Positions 49,331 to 64,000 of a stretch of 64,000 bases of DNA are shown one piece after another. Source of the DNA: Lepidurus packardi. Its lineage: Eukaryota; Arthropoda; Branchiopoda; Notostraca; Triopsidae. The position numbers and the translations under genes are program-made. The notes under the pieces were generated by a model, which was given only the letters and a program-made list of their open reading frames with translations, was not told where the DNA came from and did no database searches. Numbering within the stretch: position 1 is the stretch's first letter; each line of letters starts with the position of its first letter. Location: NCBI GenBank assembly GCA_023053545.1, contig JAKZAN010000001.1:9754565-9818564 (forward strand). Reading direction: 5' to 3'.

Positions 49331-50758
49331 ATGACAACAATACCTTACTGGAAAGCGGTCGTACACAAAGAAAACCCAAACAATCTGCACAGATATTTGG
49401 GTCCTGTACTGAAGGTCTTTCAGGTGATGGGGTTTCTGCCCGTACTTAGTAATGACAGTTCGCTATGCGTTTGTAAATCCGAAGAAAAAACTATTTTTCC
49501 TTACGTTATCAAATGTCTGCATCCATGTACCCTCTACGTAGCAATACTCATACTAGGCCAGATAGCAGAAATATCCCTTACCCAGTACATGCACGGACGC
49601 TATCTCAAAACTGACACCGCATACCAAATCATCTACATCTACAGTGTTCGCATCAAGTACATGTGCTATGGGATATTGGGTAACTTCTGCCTGCCTCGTT
49701 ACTTCCTCTTCAGAATCTCTACCTTAAAACGTCTTTGCCTCAATCTTCAGCCGTTTGTATCCACATTTCCAATTCAAGCTTTCCAAGAAATGCGTCGCAC
49801 ATTAATTTACTTGCTGGTTTTTCATTCAATATGGGTACGTGTTCAGTTTTAGATGCTCTTGTTGTTGTAAAGAAATATCAAAAGAATTGACAAGCGTTTG
49901 GTTAGATGATTTGCTTTGTGGCGATTACCCATCACTGGGTTTTCCAGTACTCTCAGTACTACAAGTCCATTTACATCGGCTTTTTCATGTACGTTCTACG
50001 GTTCCTGAACCACGCCTTTTCCATCAACTTCCTCATATTATTCACCTCCGTCTGCCTGGCCACCACCCACAGCTTCCAAGCTTTGACTACAGAGCTGTTA
50101 AAAGAAATTAAAGAGGAAAGCCCGATGAAATTAGTGGAGGCTTTAAGCACAGCTCGGCAGAAATATCGGAGCTTAACCGAGGCTATACAAACAATTTCAA
50201 ACCTTTTTCATCCCGTCCTCTTCTTCTATATTTCTGCAGCTTTACTAAGTGGAATAGTGAACCTGTACGGAATCGTTCGCTGTTATTTCCGTAGCCCCCA
50301 GCAACTGTCCAAAGACTATAATATAATTTCTTCGCACATGGAGTGGGGATTACTGCTTCTCGTCCATGACATTTTCAACCTAGCCGTTTTAATCTGGGCC
50401 GCCGAATTAATCCCGGATGCAGTAATTCAAAAACTAGCTTAATTTTATACATTTCTTTACTATCATCCCTACAATTCAGGCTCGAACCGCGCCTCAGGTC
50501 TTGCAACAAATCCCGTTGCAAGAAATAAAATTAGTGAGGTTCGTGAACTCGGTTTTGCTAGAAATGCAGCTAAGCCGAACTGAAATTTCTTCGAGTGGTA
50601 TTTTCATGTGCACCAAACGGATTTTCCCTGCGGTAAGCATCTAAGCTCACGGTGACTATGGGTATTAAAAGAAAATATATTATGTATTTATTTAGATCTC
50701 GGGCAGTGTTATTATCTATATGTTAGTGCTACTTCAATTCGAACAGTCGACAGAGTGA
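49331..50758 (+). CDS. Gustatory receptor (insect-type 7TM chemoreceptor), copy 1
   Basis: Ligand-gated seven-transmembrane chemoreceptor of the insect Gr superfamily, in sensory-neuron membranes with inverted topology. Exons: 49331-49834, 49906-50421, 50480-50632, 50696-50758; 411 aa, phase 0 throughout. Family marks: several hydrophobic segments, FMCTKRIFPA before the final intron, and a last exon with a seventh helix ending in VLLQFEQS, matching the Gr C-terminal TYxxxLxQF signature. The last phase-0 introns near the C-terminus are typical of the superfamily. It is 306 bp upstream of a second, divergent receptor. Ligand unknown. Confidence 0.88.
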
Positions 50759-51064
50759 CTCCCCAACCCTGCCCAAACTTGACCTGACAGACCTCTGACT
50801 TTTCAGAATTTGAGTCAAATCCACTATATGCTATATTCGAATCCACTATACGCTACAACCGCCAACTGACAGTACTTCGATACGGCGCTCCTAACTTGAA
50901 GTGACTGCATTTGTAAAGTAAACTGTTGCACATACACAAAATGACGCCATAAATTCCGTAGACTTGGAAAGTATTGGCAGGTAGATTAACGGTATTCGAA
51001 AATCCATTGCATTTTAAGTTCAAACTTCGAGACCAACAGAGCACCAGTATTTCTGTTGGGAGAA
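50759..51064. other. Spacer between tandem gustatory receptors
   Basis: 306 bp; no gene seen. It must hold the 3' UTR of copy 1 and any separate promoter of copy 2. Confidence 0.4.
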
Positions 51065-52835
51065 ATGGCAGTTGAGAAAAGAAAAGTGATTCAGGTTTGG
51101 CAAGAAAGTTACGAAAAAGAATCTTCAGATTTAATTACTGGCCTTCAACCTTTAATTTTCTTGTCAAAGCTCTGGGGATTTCTGCCCTTTAAAACAGTGC
51201 CTCTGCAGCAATATCCAATTCTGGCTAGCGTCTGGCATACTGAGTACATTTACTGCTGCGTAATCATAATCTTGCAATTAATAGACGTCCTGCCGAGTTT
51301 CTATGCATTTACCAATTTCATGCCTAGTTCTGCTGACGAGCTGACATACATTGTTGCTGTGCGAATCAAACATTTCTGCTATGCAGTCTGTGTCAACTTC
51401 CTTGCCCCGCGTTGCCTGTTGTTACGGCTACACCACTTGCAGTCAGCCGGCCAGAAGTTGGCGCAATTTGACAACTATTTTGGCACGGCCACTCGACAAA
51501 TTTATAGACACGTTTGGGCCATTTCTGCCACCCTCCTAGTTCTTAACACGGCTTGGGTAAACGTATTTATCGCTCTTCTACTTTTTAAACCTTTGAAACT
51601 CTTCCAACACAAGCATCTGACTTGATCAGCATTTCGGAAGGCATTTTGGAAGTCCTTAATTCTCCAAGTCTTTAGTTAATTTAACTCTTTAAGTGAATTT
51701 TAACTTACTTTAAATTGCACATATCTATCCCTGTACGATATTTCCAACCCAGTTGTAAACTCTTACCTACCCCTTAAGTTCTTCAACCCATCAAATCTTT
51801 CGTTTTCTAATTAATTTCGTTACTTGGGTATAATCAGGTGCTGACTTCCTGTTACATAAACTTGGACTGGATTGACTGGTACACGAATCGTCTCAATTCA
51901 CCCATTTTGGGACACATGGTCTACATTGTTCGCTGGTTCAATCATTCTTTGTCCATTATCCCCTTAATCTGGTTCTGCGTACTTTGCTATATCGTCGCCC
52001 AAAAATTTTCCCAACTTCGACTCAAATTAAAATCCACTCTCGCGACTTACTCAATCCACTGGTTCGCTGGGAGAACTGCCCCTTACCTCATTGATGACCC
52101 CAAGAACAATTTACCCTCGTTAGCCCACTCTATCGACGATTTACGCGCCGCTTACTGCTTCCTAGCAGAAATTGCGCAACAGATTTCCCATTTTTTCTCT
52201 ATGGCTATGGTTCTGATTTTCACTCCGAAGTTGGTGGAAACGGTGGTTAACATCTTTGATATATTTCGTTGCTGGATGAAATCCTTTGAGAATGGGTCGC
52301 GCGATCCTTCGCAATGGATTCCTACCTGGGTCCCACTATTACTGGGTTATGATTTAATGTGCATCACTCTCTTACTTTGGGCAGCAGACATCATTCCGCG
52401 AGAGGTATACAACTTGTAAACACAACAAAAGCTAAAGTCTGCTCTATTTCAGGCTCGTCTAGTAGTGGAAGAACTCAAAAAAGTCTCACTCCGAGATGCC
52501 GATCCCCTGATCCATCAACAAGTAATTTCCAAAAGCACTCACGCTATACAGTACTTTATTTTCGGGGGTGTATAAGGTTCAAGCGTTCCAAGTTCAAGCA
52601 GTGAGCACGTCAGTAAAAATGACAGCTGGTGGCTACTTCACGCTCGGCAAGAAACTAGTACCTTCGGTAATTACTTTCCTTTCTATGAATGACTACTTCA
52701 AGACAAAATGATGTACTCGTTTCATTTGCGCAGATGGTGGGAACTATTACAACGTATATCATAGTACTGATCCAGTTTGAGCAATCAGGCTCTAACAAGA
52801 CGCGGATTGCCACTTCAAACATAACTATCTCTTAA
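51065..52835 (+). CDS. Gustatory receptor, copy 2
   Basis: Same family as its upstream neighbour but strongly diverged. Exons: 51065-51556, 51838-52404, 52453-52521, 52577-52666, 52734-52835; 439 aa, phase 0 throughout. First ATG in frame is 51065. The first intron falls after a matching Trp (NTAW here, HSIW in copy 1), and the C-terminal exon reads TYIIVLIQFEQS, the Gr signature. It has an additional 55-nt intron (52522-52576) that splits the region encoded by a single exon (50480-50632) in copy 1. A poly-A signal AATAAA lies at 53136-53141. Tandem duplication followed by long divergence is the simplest reading. Confidence 0.88.
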
Positions 52836-53717: not shown

Positions 53718-55931
53718 ATGAAGGGGGCCGTTTATGAACAGTGGCTCTTATTTATGACAATTGCTGAAATGCTCGCTGTGATAAGTGTTAATACTATCAT
53801 GATCCTAATGTTCTTACGTCATCAACAATTGCTCTCAGCATTGAATCTGTACATTTGCTCTATGTGCATTTCCGGATTAATTAGCGGGATTTTGGCGCCA
53901 TTCGGCATCGGACCTTACGTTGGGTAATACTTGTGTAATTTTCTTTAAACTACAGCTTTTAAGAGTTTTTTTTAAAATATTCTCTTGCATTATTCAGAAT
54001 AAGGTAAAATTGAGAAGTATTTGAAAGCTAAAATTTTAAATATCACTTAAGTTCGTATTTTTTAAATAAAATTACTAAGTATTGACGTTTTTGTAAATTA
54101 TTTTCATAACTCGAGATTTTTTATGTAACACCTACTTAAGGTTAGGAACTGATGCAGGCAATTAAGCAATTTATATTCGTAAGGGCTTTTTCCAAAAAAG
54201 CTTACCAAAAAAGTGAAAACTAACATTTTAATAAGAATTTTGCTTACATTTCTAAACATACGCTGTTTACGGTTCTCTTTAAGAGAAACGAATAATGACT
54301 GAAACTAGTTATTTTTACAACACAACTTTTCCAGCCATACGACCTTTTTTAAGTGTAACAAATAGTGAGAGTTATCAACATTTCCAAAAACCACCGCTAA
54401 TATTCAAGGATAGTCATAAAGGCGACAAACCCTGTGCCGAAAGATTAAAAAAGTCGACGCGGTGAAAAAAGCCTCGTGCTCACATAAAAGGCGACCTCGG
54501 CTTTAAATACCCTATATTACTTTACCATGCTATAACAGAACCGACCCGCGTTCTAAGAAACGCCAAGCGAGCTGACACCGACACAGTTTGGGTTCCGATA
54601 ACCCTATTCTACGTATATCAAGTCTCGCCTATCTCATGATATCTCGTGTATCATCGCGTCTAATCTAACTGTTTCAGTACCAGAAGAATAAAACTACAAA
54701 GAAACGAAATTTAATAAGTCAATAGTAAACGATAAAAGGACTGGATGTCCAAATCATTACGAAATACGATATTACGTTTAGTATATAGATACTAGATTTT
54801 CGCTTTTCTGTCTATTTCACTGAATTACACTGGATTAAATTAAAAACCTTTATACTGAGATACTTAGAGTTCTACTTGAGGGTTTACAACTAGTATCAAA
54901 ACCCCATTTACATTAGATTTTAAGGTTACTAACAATATTTCTGATAGTTTGCCAAATATTTTTGCTAATCAACTATTACTTCTACTTTTCAAAACCGCAG
55001 GCCGTACACCTATGTGGGAGTGTTTAGTGCAAACCCTTGCGTAGGGCAAAAATGGAAAGCCGTAGTATTCTACGCCGCTGCTTTCAACAACATTCTCTGC
55101 ATGCTGGCCATTGCGGTGGAGCGTTGGCGGTCTCTCTCCTCGTCTACACGCCACAACAGCTCCTGCAAGATCGCGGGCATAGTCACGTCCATCCTCTGGA
55201 TAGTCTCCGCTCTCTACGCGGTAATTCTCTTCCAAAAAAGCAGCTACCCTCTACCCATCACCGTTTCTTTCGGTTCCCCCTCTGAATCCTTTGTATCTGA
55301 ACGGCAAAACCTCTTTTCGACAGCAACAAACCTTTCCTCTACAGAAACGTTAGACTATGCGACGTCAGCGACGAACCAAACAAACTTCCAAATCATCATG
55401 TGTTTCTCACAAAAAAGAACTTTGGTTCTCATAATTGCCACCGTAACCTTCGCTGTCAGCTACTTAGGCCCGTTATTAATTATGGCTGTCATTTACAGCC
55501 GGCTCATCTTGCGTCTAATGGCAGACATGCGTCGTGCAGCAAGTCGCGCGAGCAGTTTACAGCGCGCCAAGTTACGCGCGGTGCAAGCAATGATCCTCGT
55601 GGTGATTATCTTCGCCGCGTGCTGGCTGCCGGGCCAGGGTTTGCAAATCTGGCTCGCGTCCCGTACCACGGATTATATCCTATCCAAAAGCCACGTGTCC
55701 ATCATCGAGAAACTCGTTGTGGATTTTGGAACGCATTTTGCCATATGGAACCACTGGATTCACGCCCTTGTTTACCCGCTCTACAGTCGCCAAATTAGTT
55801 GTGCTCTCCGCGAGACTTTATCTTTTATTTTCTGTTTTGGTTCAATGACATGCCTCCGCCCTTCAACAACCAACCCGTCAATTGTGGCCAGTCCTGACGG
55901 TAGGATATCATCAATTGTTGCAAGTACTTGA
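53718..55931 (+). CDS. Divergent class-A (rhodopsin-like) GPCR, orphan
   Basis: Seven-transmembrane plasma-membrane receptor. Exons 53718-53923 and 55001-55931, joined in phase 2 by a 1077-nt intron; 378 aa. ATG 53718 is the first in frame after the acceptor at 53618, leaving only about seven residues before TM1. TM6 has the canonical CWLP. Other class-A landmarks are altered: ERW instead of DRY after TM3, no Asp visible at the usual TM2 position (NLYICSMCISGL), and HALVY where NPxxY is expected at the end of TM7. The second extracellular loop is long and Ser/Thr/Asn-rich with possible glycosylation sites. It could be a peptide receptor; no ligand can be proposed. AATAAA follows at 56041-56046. 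Confidence 0.8.
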
Positions 55932-58543: not shown

Positions 58544-59718
58544 GAAATAAATTCGTCCTGGGGACTAAGCTAGTGAACGTTTACACGTAATATAACTCCC
58601 AACAATAAATCAGCGGTGACAACAAATATGAAGAGAATGAAAGCACCTAGAGCAATCTAAGTAAAAAGGATATAATTAGGAAAATTTAAATTGACATCAT
58701 TCCACATACTTAACGGGCATCAAGGAGTCGTAGCTTTATGCAAATTAAACGGAAGTCAAAGAAAAGCAAAACAGTTCGGACAACAAGGAACCTTTCCTTT
58801 CTTTAAATTGTTTGATATTGAGTTTAACAGATGGCATTATGAAACAGAAAACGGCTACATTCAAAATTGGCGCGGAATTTGAAAGGGTCACGAAAACTTG
58901 CGATTTTAAATGGAGAAATCAAAATTCAGTTCCAAAAAGTGTCCTATTTGTACTTAAGCTAAAAGAATCCTGTAACTTAAGTTACAAATATAAATTTACG
59001 TATATAAAATGTATGACTGCTGTACGTTTTGCTTTGTCATTATTTTCGTAAGTTTACAATAAATGTCCGCCATTTTTGTGACAAAATCCTAATTCCGACG
59101 TCGTTTGCAATGTTTTATTTGCAAAATTAATTATTTTAATAGTAAATTTTTATATTCTTATATTATAATATGACTTATAAGCATTTTTATTGACATTAAA
59201 AGGTACCAGCTATAGCCGGTAAAACTCTGCGGTGAGTTGGAGCTTGACAATACTGAACAGAAATGGGTCCGTTTTATCACTTCGTGACAAGGGTCAAATA
59301 AATTGTGTGTCCCTTTGGGCAGTAATAACTTGAATTAATCTGTATGTTCCCAGGTAATACTTGGACGACTGGCGTAAAACGAATTGTCACATTTTCATTT
59401 TTTTTTAGTTACAGAGCACCTATTGTACTTGCACAGTAATTCAGACCACAATCAGGTGACTAACAAAAGGTACAGAAACGAACCACATGTGCAGAAACGA
59501 ACAAATGCGAACTTCCGTCCAACGTTTATCAAAGCATTATTCAACTGCGAACTTCAAAACGCCTCCCAAATCTGAAGGACATTCAGATATGAGCAGTTGT
59601 TTTTAGCAGGGTATAAAAAGGTTGGAAGAATGCTTCAAAACCACACAAGTTTTGCGAACATCAGTAGATTTTTGCTAATATTTCCAAAACAGTATCCCGA
59701 ATATTTTACTAGACGAAA
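58544..59718. other. Divergent intergenic region MTFR / OBP-like gene
   Basis: About 1.2 kb, AT-rich. A TATA box (TATAAAAA, 59612-59619) stands 100 bp before the start codon of the OBP-like gene, and an ATCAGTA initiator-like site at 59660-59666. Open frames 58691-58882 and 58812-59051 have no support. Confidence 0.45.
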
Positions 59719-61149
59719 ATGTCTTTCCTTGTGGTGTTGATGATTTCGGCGCACGCCTTGGTAAACTCTTAATCTATTTGTTCAGTTAAATAGAAACGCA
59801 ACATATATTCAAAATAAACTTGTTACGTAGCTCCAAATACTAATATTCATATAACACAGATACCAACGTCTTCCGCAGCCGGTTATAATGCCACGGGTAA
59901 GCTGTCGTACTCCACACAAATTCTATCAATTTTTATTCTAAATAGTTTATATCAAATATAGATAACCCTGTAAGATGAGGTATTTACAACTAACTTTCAC
60001 AGTGCTAACGATAAATCCTATTTAGTTTCCATGCTTGTTGGAAAGTCATCGTAGTGGAGCGAAAGCTTGCATGAATCAACGTAAGTTTCAGGCTCTCCTT
60101 ATATTGCATACCATGCAAATTATATTTTAAATTAAATATTTATGTGTTTAGTTACGGCCCTTCTCAATCAAAATACAGTAATATTGTAAATTAGTTTTAA
60201 TTTTAATTTAAAAATAATTATTAACCATTTTGCAAACAAGTTCACGAGCACCAATGTTAGAATGGTAAGCTGAGATATTTTACATATTCGAAATTGTCTA
60301 ATCCCATTCAACGGTATTTTAAACAACTTTAGTGCCTTCCGAAATGCGCCTTACAACAATGGAACGCGGTAAATTTAATTTTACTAGATCAAACAATACT
60401 TGATTTTCAATATTTTTAAATAATACAAATGCGTTTTTTATTTTGCTCATTAAACTAATCTTTACAGATTGATTCAGCAGGAGTGATAAGCTCTACCCGT
60501 CTGGCGGCGGTGATCACAGCCTCTAATTTAACCTCAACTAGAAAAATTAACGCTACTACAATTTTGACCAGTTGTTTGGCCTCAAATGCTTCCGTAAACT
60601 CTAGCGGTAATAATCCTATTAATTTTATTTTTGGAGCAATTCAAATCAACCCCACATAATTTAAAAATACTAACAATGTTTTATCATTATCCTAAAAGCC
60701 TTAATTTAAAGTACTGTAGAGTTTACAATTTTGTAGAATCCTAGAAGACTTCCAACTAATTTTCTGTCTTATCATTTTCTAAGACACTTGTCTGTGCTCT
60801 CCGCCTTCCAATGGCCGACCCCAACAACCTAATGAAAAGCCTTCTTCTTCCGGCTTTCCTGGCGGCTTTCGTCCAGGCCAAACCGGTGATAATACCAAGC
60901 CGACTTTGTCGGCGGATTGCCTGCCCAGTGCTCAAGCCCTCCGCTGCCTGAAAATTGCCCTTCATGCCAACGTAAGTTTACTTTTTACCACTCCGGGGCT
61001 TATTTATTGTTATAACTTTCTTTTCTTTCTAATTTCTGAATTCATCTGATTTCTTTTCTGACCTTGGGAGGACTTTTCTATACCTTTCTCTTACCTAGAG
61101 TTGTGGGCAACGATGCCAAAAGCCAACACAAAAACCAATGACCGGCTAG
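59719..61149 (+). CDS. Secreted cysteine-rich protein with odorant-binding-protein-like cysteine spacing (novel)
   Basis: Ten small exons: 59719-59760, 59860-59896, 59962-59969 (8 nt), 60026-60080, 60152-60177, 60241-60264, 60333-60368, 60468-60606, 60784-60971, 61099-61149; 201 aa. Every junction has GT-AG ends and the phase holds throughout, strong support for a real gene. Signal peptide MSFLVVLMISAHA. Eleven cysteines: 32, 44, 65, 69, 112, 125, 127, 168, 177, 187, 191. Six of them follow C-x32-C-x3-C-x42-C-x55-C-x8-C; the x3, x42 and x8 gaps are those of insect odorant-binding proteins, and CLPKCALQQ...IDSAGVI resembles the OBP C2-C3 helix. The fourth gap (normally 8-14) is enlarged by a Pro/Gly-rich loop (about 128-165). 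Several NxS/T sites. AATAAA at 61315. A small-ligand carrier is inferred; a different helical secreted family remains possible. Confidence 0.8.
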
Positions 61150-64000
61150 AAACCAGTACCTCAACTATCGACGTCAGGTTTGGTCCCAATAATGTATCCA
61201 AGAAATACACGTATACTAATATTCCTGCATATCTACAAGTTGTTTTCACTAATACCAGGATCTATGAATTCCTCTCCATTTTTTAAAAAATGTGTCCTCT
61301 TTCTTTATTCGTTGAATAAAAATGGTGGGATGGAGAAAATGTTCAACACAGCATTGAGGAATGAGAAATACAAACGAGGAATTTCGTTCCAGACGACTAA
61401 AAAACTCTTGGAAATGGTTCAGTTTTCATAAAACATAAAAAATACTCGACCCCCTCGCTCTAACATGCTTCCCAAACAACTTTTTAATTAACTGTTTTCC
61501 CTATACGAAAATCTACCATACACAATGAAAAAAAAACAGCGTGCTCAATAACCACTCTGTGTATCATTTTCCCCTGAAGCATTCATTCATTTATTTAAGA
61601 AACCAACAATTTCATACAAAACTTTTTACAGAAATTACAACAACCTTAAAATTACCCAACTCCTCACCCCAACCCTTTTTATCTAGAAATATATGACGTT
61701 GACAGGCTAAAGCCTACAAGCCGTATTTAAAAAACTAATACTTTTACAACTATAAATAGCAATCGCACATCTTCGCTTATTCTAGGATTCAATATTTAAA
61801 TTTGGCTAACTAAAATATAGTTAGAAAAGGCTGACGAAGCGCGACTCTTCATTGTATTTTTTTTAAACTGTAGATAATTAAAGATTTTGTTTAATTGAAG
61901 ATTCACGAAGTAAAAAAAACGTAAAAAAAACTATTGGTACAAAGCTCAATTTAAGACATATACAGAATTGACTCTAAGACTGTACGTAAAACTATAGTTT
62001 ATTACAATAACATAATTATTAATATATAATTAAGTAAGAATCATTATTAAATTAAGTGTTATAGCCGCAAGGGAGTTAAAACTAGGTTAAAAGCCCTGGT
62101 ATCCCAAACCAACTTGGGTAAAAAAAATAATAAAAAAAATCGTAGATGACGAATGATTCAATTCATGACAATGCCATGCTGTATAATGTATAAGAGACAG
62201 CTGGGCTGACTAATCATATGATCTTTTATACTTTGGAAACAGTTATAGAAGATAAGGGCGAGGAAGAAGACCTAGCTGCTTCTCCTTGTGCTTTGGTAAT
62301 CGAATGCTTATTTCTCAGCCATCCAGGGAGCCCAGCACGGCCTCGTGACCCATATTTGACAAGCTTTAGGGAAACAGAATGTCTTCACAGAGAGAAGAAA
62401 GAGAAGACGGAAAAAAAACTCAATGGTTGCCTATTTTTTTTTTTGCCTGTTTGCTTGTACCGCGTGAGGCAAACTAACTAACCTCTTAAAAAAAAGCTTT
62501 GAAAATATGTACTTGCTGGCTAAAAAGCCATAAAACGTGTACGCCGTTAATTTTCCTTCCGCGTGTTGGGATTTGGGATCACCGGGATGGTGCGATGATG
62601 GGAGGAGCCTGTGTAAAATGAAGCAAAGGCGAAAATTTTGGGATTTTGATCCACTGTTTTCTCCTACTGTTACAGCAACTCCAAGCTGCCCAAGGATGGA
62701 CGTTCGCGGTTGGAAAGAAAAAGTTCTCTTTTGAACCCTTCGGGAATGTGTTATAGTGGAATAATAGTGTGGAGCAAGTTGCAGTGTGCCCAAGGTGGTC
62801 AGTCCAAGTTGGTCCTCGTGGAAGCACGAAAGTAGAGGGAAGAAAATAGCCCCTTCCCTTTTGCCCAAATTTGTTGCCGTGTCAATGGTGAAGTTTAGTC
62901 CACGACCCACTCTTTTTCCTTTACACTCTTCAGTGCGCAAATATTTATATAACTCTTCAAAGAAGAATATAATTTCCTCTTTCTTCGCAAGTCTTCGAGT
63001 TGGGGTAACTTTATGAAACTCGCAAAAAAATAGTATAAAACTGAAATCCATTTCCATGTGCGAAATTGAGCAAATGCGGTAGTGAAAAGCAGCTTGTTTG
63101 TTTAGCGGATTTAATTGGCAAGACTTAAAGAAATCGTGAATCAAAGAAATATTTAAGAATGGGTCAAATAACGACAGTAAAGAAGACTGGCTGCCTCCGC
63201 CAAGCGACGTCGTGGATGACAAGACGCATGGAAACGTTTTTCTGCAGGTAGGAAATGGAAACAACCGGAAAGAGAAATTGCTAAATTAAGAAACCTGCTT
63301 TTCCTGTCCCAAAATTCTTTTCACTTCGGGATTTCGCTGAATAATTACCGGTGAAAGGGAAAGTTTTATTTTTCCTGATTCACTTACAGGATGGATATGA
63401 TACATAAACCGATAAACCGCAAATATGATCCACATTTTTCAGATCTGCGGACTAGCTTTTATGGCTAGTCAATAAACCATGAACCCTTATCATCTCTTAA
63501 TTTAATAAAAAGTTATGTTTTAATTTAAGAAAAGCCGCAAATAGGACGATAGAACAGCCAAGCAACCTATACGAATTCGAACACCTATTTGGCCTCTAGG
63601 TCAGTGTAGGTAAAGGCCAAGGCCGTCTCTTTAGGGAGAAGGAGATTTAACACGTGGCCTGTTAGACCCTTAAATGCATTACTACGAGACAAAAGATAAG
63701 AGCAAGCAGGGAGAAATGTCAGTGGTTAGTAGTCCTGTGCATCTTTCTGAAAAGTTACTTCATCCTCACCCGAAGTTCATTATCACACGGAAGGCCGTCT
63801 GAAAAAGCTGGCATAGTGGTACTCGAAGATGAAAAATATAGGCCAAGAGGCACACATTCCGTTAGGTTTTGATACTTGTAGCGTTTACTGGTCCTCGTGT
63901 AACGCGTTTCACACGTTAAGACGCATATGACATTACGTAGTTCCGGATCAACATGGAATTCGTTGTTGCCTTCTTATAAGCAGGATTATTTGAAGTTAAC
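61150..64000. other. Mostly non-coding right end
   Basis: About 2.85 kb. 61440-62180 is strongly AT-rich. A 14-bp match to the Tn5 mosaic end lies at 62187-62200. The only long open frame is 62431-63264 on the minus strand, listed separately. From 63300 to the end I see no gene. Confidence 0.4.
62431..63264 (-). CDS. Long open frame of unknown status (277 codons)
   Basis: Uninterrupted from the ATG at 63264 to the stop at 62431. No signal peptide, no recognised domain; the composition (many Phe, Ser, Lys runs) looks like translated non-coding DNA. Yet an open run of this length is unlikely by chance at about 40% GC. It could be a real lineage-specific gene, a 3' exon of a gene on the minus strand, or chance. 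Confidence 0.2.
   Translation of the reverse strand: MFPFPTCRKTFPCVLSSTTSLGGGSQSSLLSLFDPFLNISLIHDFFKSCQLNPLNKQAAFHYRICSISHMEMDFSFILFFCEFHKVTPTRRLAKKEEIIFFFEELYKYLRTEECKGKRVGRGLNFTIDTATNLGKREGAIFFPLLSCFHEDQLGLTTLGTLQLAPHYYSTITHSRRVQKRTFSFQPRTSILGQLGVAVTVGENSGSKSQNFRLCFILHRLLPSSHHPGDPKSQHAEGKLTAYTFYGFLASKYIFSKLFFKRLVSLPHAVQANRQKKK

Follow-up and report, generated by a model that had tools for sequence, protein, structure and literature searches.

The probable product of the gene at 59719-61149 of the window (the whole 64,000-nucleotide stretch of DNA analyzed here) is a carrier of the PBP_GOBP superfamily that is secreted, largely helical, and braced by disulfides. The gene belongs to a lineage with nine or more members, and the genome is most likely that of a branchiopod. 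The best reading classes the product as a secreted OBP-like carrier with additional cysteines and, between C4 and C5, an insert rich in Pro and Gly. It is not filed as a classic odorant-binding protein (OBP), because its C4-C5 gap and its size fail to fit that class.

Direct inspection located all ten exons on the + strand (Table 1). The nine introns (56-177 nt each) are all bounded by GT-AG, and the spliced frame is open through to the TAG at 61147-61149, giving a product of 201 aa; the gene is thus as internally consistent as the sequence-only reading, made before this analysis, had described it. A spliced-alignment script recovered the identical ten exons, which is a consistency check only, since the script was guided by the same window protein. 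The weakest piece of the model is the micro-exon ahead of the FPC exon. This 8-nt exon is supported by paralogues L003, L006, and L004, which have tiny exons (11, 11, and 8 nt, respectively) at the same place and in the same phase. The exon at this position is 24 nt long in L008 and L009, and no counterpart was found in L010, L012, and L054.

Table 1. Location of the window gene and its signals (positions in the window), of its paralogues with their PBP_GOBP E-values, and of the globin loci (contigs of the genome).
Feature	Location	Strand	Content or basis
TATA-like box TATAAAAA, upstream of exon 1	59612..59619	+	weak promoter candidate; read in sequence
Exon 1	59719..59760	+	start codon and hydrophobic N-terminus (probable signal peptide)
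Exon 2	59860..59896	+	
Exon 3	59962..59969	+	8-nt micro-exon; exons at the matching place in L003, L006, L004
Exon 4	60026..60080	+	FPCL...AC with C32 and C44 (C-x11-C)
Exon 5	60152..60177	+	
Exon 6	60241..60264	+	
Exon 7 (CxxxC exon)	60333..60368	+	C65-x3-C69 (OBP C2 and C3); 36 nt and phase 0 in 9/9 paralogues
Exon 8	60468..60606	+	IDSAGVI... region and C112 (OBP C4)
Exon 9	60784..60971	+	C125, C127, Pro/Gly-rich insert, C168-x8-C177 (proposed OBP C5 and C6)
Exon 10	61099..61149	+	C187, C191, stop codon
AATAAA polyadenylation-like signal, 3' of stop	61315..61320	+	read in sequence
L003 and L004	C4, in tandem		spliced models / reading by eye; E 7.1e-4 (L003), 6.2e-4 (L004)
L006	C1		spliced models / reading by eye; E 0.028
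L008	C2		spliced models / reading by eye; E 3.6e-5
L009	C6		spliced models / reading by eye; E 2.6e-5
L010	C1		spliced models / reading by eye; E 0.049
L012	C5		spliced models / reading by eye; E 0.055
L054	C1, adjoining L006		ninth gene, found by a search with L006 as query; E 0.0019
Globin loci L056-L064	C3:8691666-8698346, C3:8583227-8584012, C1:8303282-8304135		

The window protein contains 11 cysteines (positions 32, 44, 65, 69, 112, 125, 127, 168, 177, 187, and 191), and 14 hydrophobic residues at its N-terminus are signal-peptide-like, as judged by eye. The spacing given in the sequence-only reading, C32-x32-C65-x3-C69-x42-C112-x55-C168-x8-C177, was correct in itself but omitted C44, which falls within x32, and the pair C125 and C127, which fall within x55. 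The same reading had noted extra C-terminal cysteines, a Pro/Gly-rich insertion in the fourth gap, and three gaps equal to those of insect OBPs, and all of these were found: C187 and C191 are present, the insert lies between C4 and C5 in exon 9, and the x3, x42, and x8 gaps are constant in 9/9 paralogues. It had also counted C32 as the first OBP cysteine, a position that the PDB profile alignments assign instead to C44, which aligns with the first cysteine of an aphid OBP.

The gene first described as a single one is real, but it is not alone: its family numbers at least nine paralogues, spread over five contigs. A tblastn search with the window product against its own 108.56-Mb genome returned, apart from itself, matches at seven other sites, with E-values from 6.8e-6 to 0.46; the first matches to L010 (0.285) and L012 (0.462) were weak. 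Searches of the genome with L009, L054, and L010 as queries revealed no additional paralogue, and nine is a lower bound because the searches score the best candidates only. A C145 match in the search with L054 had an E-value of 0.34. The models of L010, L012, and L054 are without first exons, those of L003, L004, L006, L008, and L009 are possibly incomplete at their ends, and those of L004, L010, L012, and L054 were completed by eye.

All nine members align with the spacing C-x11-C-xN-C-x3-C-x42-C-xN-C-x8-C-x9-C, in which the second gap (7-35) and the C4-C5 gap (27-68) vary. Eight cysteine columns are invariant throughout, with 8 to 11 cysteines per model. Because eight paralogues hold x11, x3, x42, x8, and x9 exactly, the spacing in the window protein is beyond chance. 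The shortest C4-C5 stretch (27) belongs to L012, which is without the Pro/Gly-rich insert, suggesting that the insert may have been gained later. L012 (locus L039) is a divergent member with an acidic, serine-rich C-terminal tail of ~90 residues. The recent pair L008/L009 differs by 14 synonymous and 25 non-synonymous changes (dS 0.111, dN/dS 0.53), with an intron divergence of 0.058; these values would be consistent with mild constraint on the pair and are not decisive.

A search of this product with the PF01395 profile had been proposed, and we compared the product with the 24736 models of Pfam-A. PBP_GOBP (PF01395) was the sole family listed for the window protein at E-values up to 10, with E 6.1e-4 and 20.3 bits, slightly under the curated cut-off of 22 bits. 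We looked for a confident match to the profile of some unrelated family, which would have spoken against an OBP-like protein, and found none. PBP_GOBP was also the top family in 9/9 paralogues (E 2.6e-5 to 0.055); L008 and L009 (24.3 and 24.7 bits) exceeded the cut-off and the remaining seven fell below it. Other families appeared among the paralogues once each, at E 0.057 or worse, and none recurred in the nine. When five shuffles of the window protein and five of L009 were made with the cysteines fixed, PBP_GOBP was matched by 0/10. Some other Pfam family was matched by 4/10 (E 0.071-0.16), so the three weakest family members (0.028-0.055) are individually near noise. A six-frame PF01395 search of the whole genome gave no match and no classic OBP exon, a negative that is uninformative given the short exons and the equally silent controls.

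With phmmer, the window protein had just two weak matches in the PDB, both unrelated. Family profiles brought OBPs forward: they ranked 1-3 of the six sequences listed for a five-member profile (E 0.19-0.22) and were 6/8 of those listed for a nine-member profile (best E 0.10), in which an unrelated phosphoprotein nearly equaled the best OBP (E 0.12 vs 0.10). None of these single matches was significant with either profile. In a second, low-scoring segment of the nine-member alignment, C168-x8-C177 pairs with C5-x8-C6 of the aphid OBP. A comparison of the family profile with five insect OBPs by hhalign scored 28.8 (E 7.3e-4, probability 25.8%) over 67 columns from C2 to C4, with C1, C5, and C6 outside the alignment. 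When the eight cysteine columns were fixed and 180 other well-filled columns were permuted, 200/200 controls scored 16.6 or lower, compared with 28.8. Taken together, the Pfam, shuffle, PDB-profile, hhalign, and permutation results point to likely homology with the OBP superfamily, based on more than the cysteines.

The host genome is very probably that of a branchiopod crustacean, because it combines a pancrustacean mitochondrial gene order with paired globin exons. These features support the crustacean origin on which the sequence-only reading had made the significance of the gene depend. A mitochondrial insertion has the order nad2-cox1-trnL2-cox2-atp6-cox3-nad3, followed by trnA, trnR, trnN, trnS1, and trnE (genes and tRNAs recognized by eye). 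With trnL2 lying between cox1 and cox2, this is the pancrustacean order, given in the available part of one survey for all Spinicaudata, for Notostraca (one with an unassigned region), and for 17/32 Cladocera (PMC8942981). Globin matches number 13, of which three are single and the other ten are paired ~0.6 kb apart; three pairs stand in a tandem row on C3, another is on C3, and one is on C1. These five pairs were the main clue to the host group. The two loci that were read (L060 and L062) begin with a hydrophobic segment, contain a stretch rich in threonine, and encode two globin domains in adjacent exons, and the paired exons would join into one transcript. Two-domain secreted globin chains with a threonine-rich stretch are typical of branchiopods. 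An accessible section of PMC7457136 describes hemoglobin as replacing hemocyanin in branchiopods, with expanded hemoglobin copies and a di-domain hemoglobin in Daphnia pulex.

The 18S in the genome measures 1811 nt. Arginine kinase does not discriminate between hosts, since its identity ties at 294/356 with one chain, which we take to be that of Daphnia, and 293/355 with another, presumably from shrimp. The wording of cox1 is, as we take it, crustacean-looking. Contig C1, which carries the window gene, also bears rDNA copies, mitochondrial insertions, and globins, and the gene is therefore nuclear and not a contaminant. Many mitochondrial insertions occur in nuclear contigs (L017, L018, L019, L020, and others), one of them several kilobases long with its gene order intact. 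In addition, COX1-family open frames that are stop-free in the standard code were found on the small contigs C52, C214, and C43, and these probably derive from associated or contaminating bacteria.

Two alternatives to this identification deserve weighing. An unrelated helical, cysteine-rich secreted family could have acquired an OBP-like cysteine spacing by convergence, as the weak individual Pfam and PDB scores, the extra cysteines, the long Pro/Gly insert, and the low probability of an hhalign match limited to the C2-C4 core would allow. We consider this unlikely, given that permuted controls with fixed cysteine columns stayed far below the observed score, that the Pfam match was lost in 10/10 cysteine-fixed shuffles, and that no second family recurred among the nine paralogues. 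A true OBP family in a hexapod genome would make the finding ordinary, and this is very unlikely. The pancrustacean mitochondrial order is common to hexapods too and arginine kinase is non-discriminating, which leaves room for such a host; OBPs are also known from Collembola (available text of PMC4145409). Against a hexapod stand the five globin exon pairs, three of them in a tandem row, with two domains and secreted-looking starts of the branchiopod type at the two loci read. No 7tm_6 odorant receptor was matched in a search run without a positive control, and the six-frame search, with its silent controls, gave no classic OBP exon.

As a PBP_GOBP-type carrier, the product would be secreted and would fold into a bundle of helices held together by disulfides of the OBP type. 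If the cysteines pair as usual (C1-C3, C2-C5, and C4-C6), the predicted bridges are C44-C69, C65-C168, and C112-C177, and further bridges may form among C32, C125 or C127, C187, and C191. The Pro/Gly-rich stretch would then form a flexible loop joining helix five to helix six, and a small lipophilic ligand could be carried outside cells in a hydrophobic cavity. Candidates for this ligand are a signaling chemical that receptors detect and an internal lipid. From the sequence homology, ligand carriage appears somewhat more probable than its absence, and a chemosensory role is rather doubtful. A member of the OBP superfamily with another role, as a carrier or structural protein of hemolymph, gut, egg, or cyst, stands at about an even chance; it is one functional version of the best explanation, and both can hold together. 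Passages of PMC4145409 describe certain insect OBPs acting outside chemoreception, and the use of the Varroa OBPs is called unclear by their own authors in the portion of PMC8222343 available. These reports favor the non-chemosensory variant.

The sequence-only reading had placed two gustatory receptors and a GPCR on the same contig. One receptor was borne out: 51811-52416, part of a receptor-like stretch at 50990-52416, matches 7tm_7 as a chemoreceptor fragment (E 7.2e-8). The three other pieces taken for gustatory receptors in the 49331-50439 and 50990-52416 stretches, those of 49331-50439 among them, had no Pfam match at E 0.01. A rhodopsin-family receptor also lies near the gene, at 54969-55928 (E 4.5e-14). 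Linkage to receptors says little about the function of the OBP-like gene and is not counted as evidence. Additionally, TGTATAAGAGACAG is present at 62187-62200; we take it to be identical to the final 14 bases of a transposase adapter end, and it either arose by chance or is a trace of the library left in the assembly.

A crustacean PBP_GOBP-type family would close the gap that separates hexapod OBPs from the OBP-like proteins known in chelicerates and myriapods, and branchiopod genomes and transcriptomes would then allow a direct test of how OBPs originated. In the sections available, published accounts report OBPs as not found in Crustacea (PMC8222343, 2021), as not recognized in Crustacea, Myriapoda, or Chelicerata, with a database table listing Artemia, Daphnia, and Triops (PMC4145409), as missing from 18 copepod transcriptomes and insect-specific (PMC9692914, 2022), and as "specific to hexapods" (PMC13372173, July 2026). 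OBP-like proteins in chelicerates and over 20 in myriapods are reported in part of PMC8214410, and the accessible text of the first Strigamia report found no OBPs (PMC4244043). The portions available of a Triops transcriptome paper (PMC5192490, main text) and of a CSP-family review (PMC12940638) contain nothing on odorant proteins and no treatment of OBPs, respectively. In the open-access literature, as far as its available sections extend, we found no earlier report of a crustacean PBP_GOBP family, and Temora "odorant-binding protein A5" was the sole crustacean "OBP" met. We rate as possible, a little short of even, the wider reading that OBPs are older than hexapods and life on land. On this reading, an aquatic pancrustacean ancestor already had the insect cysteine pattern, which would survive in the branchiopod in nine or more genes whose products share eight invariant cysteines. 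The cysteine spacing of these products would be closer to that of insect OBPs than the spacing of the Varroa OBP-like proteins is, and the products might still serve to sense chemicals in water.

Compared with classic insect OBPs (PF01395), the window family shares the C2-x3-C3, C3-x42-C4, and C5-x8-C6 spacing, all in 9/9 paralogues, as well as profile similarity over C2-C4; the hydrophobic N-terminus of the window protein, judged by eye, would add a probable signal peptide. The family departs from them in the C4-C5 gap, which is C4-x8-14-C5 in classic insect OBPs but 55 residues in the window protein, with a family range of 27-68. The window protein also has 11 cysteines rather than six (the family models have 8-11), a Pro/Gly-rich insert, and 201 aa, whereas classic insect OBPs are given as 120-140 aa with six conserved cysteines in the part of PMC8222343 available.

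The extra cysteines of the window protein recall the Plus-C OBPs in their distribution. In Plus-C OBPs, additional cysteines occur ahead of C1, in the C4-C5 interval, and beyond C6, with a proline immediately following C6; by this description, the extra cysteines of the window protein fall in the same three regions, but C177 (C6) is followed by L and not by proline, and the extra C4-C5 cysteine is at another distance and is absent in some paralogues. The chelicerate OBP-like proteins (Varroa VdesOBP1-5 and tick OBP-like proteins) are likewise non-hexapod relatives with weak similarity. VdesOBP1-5 have a PBP/GOBP domain and tick OBP-like transcripts are without it, according to a section of PMC5638865, and the cysteine positions and bridges of the Varroa proteins depart from the insect pattern (PMC8222343, in part). 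The copepod Temora protein resembles the window family in bearing an OBP name in a crustacean; in the accessible text of PMC7541278, its authors assign most transcripts to the phosphatidylethanolamine-binding class and not to PBP_GOBP.
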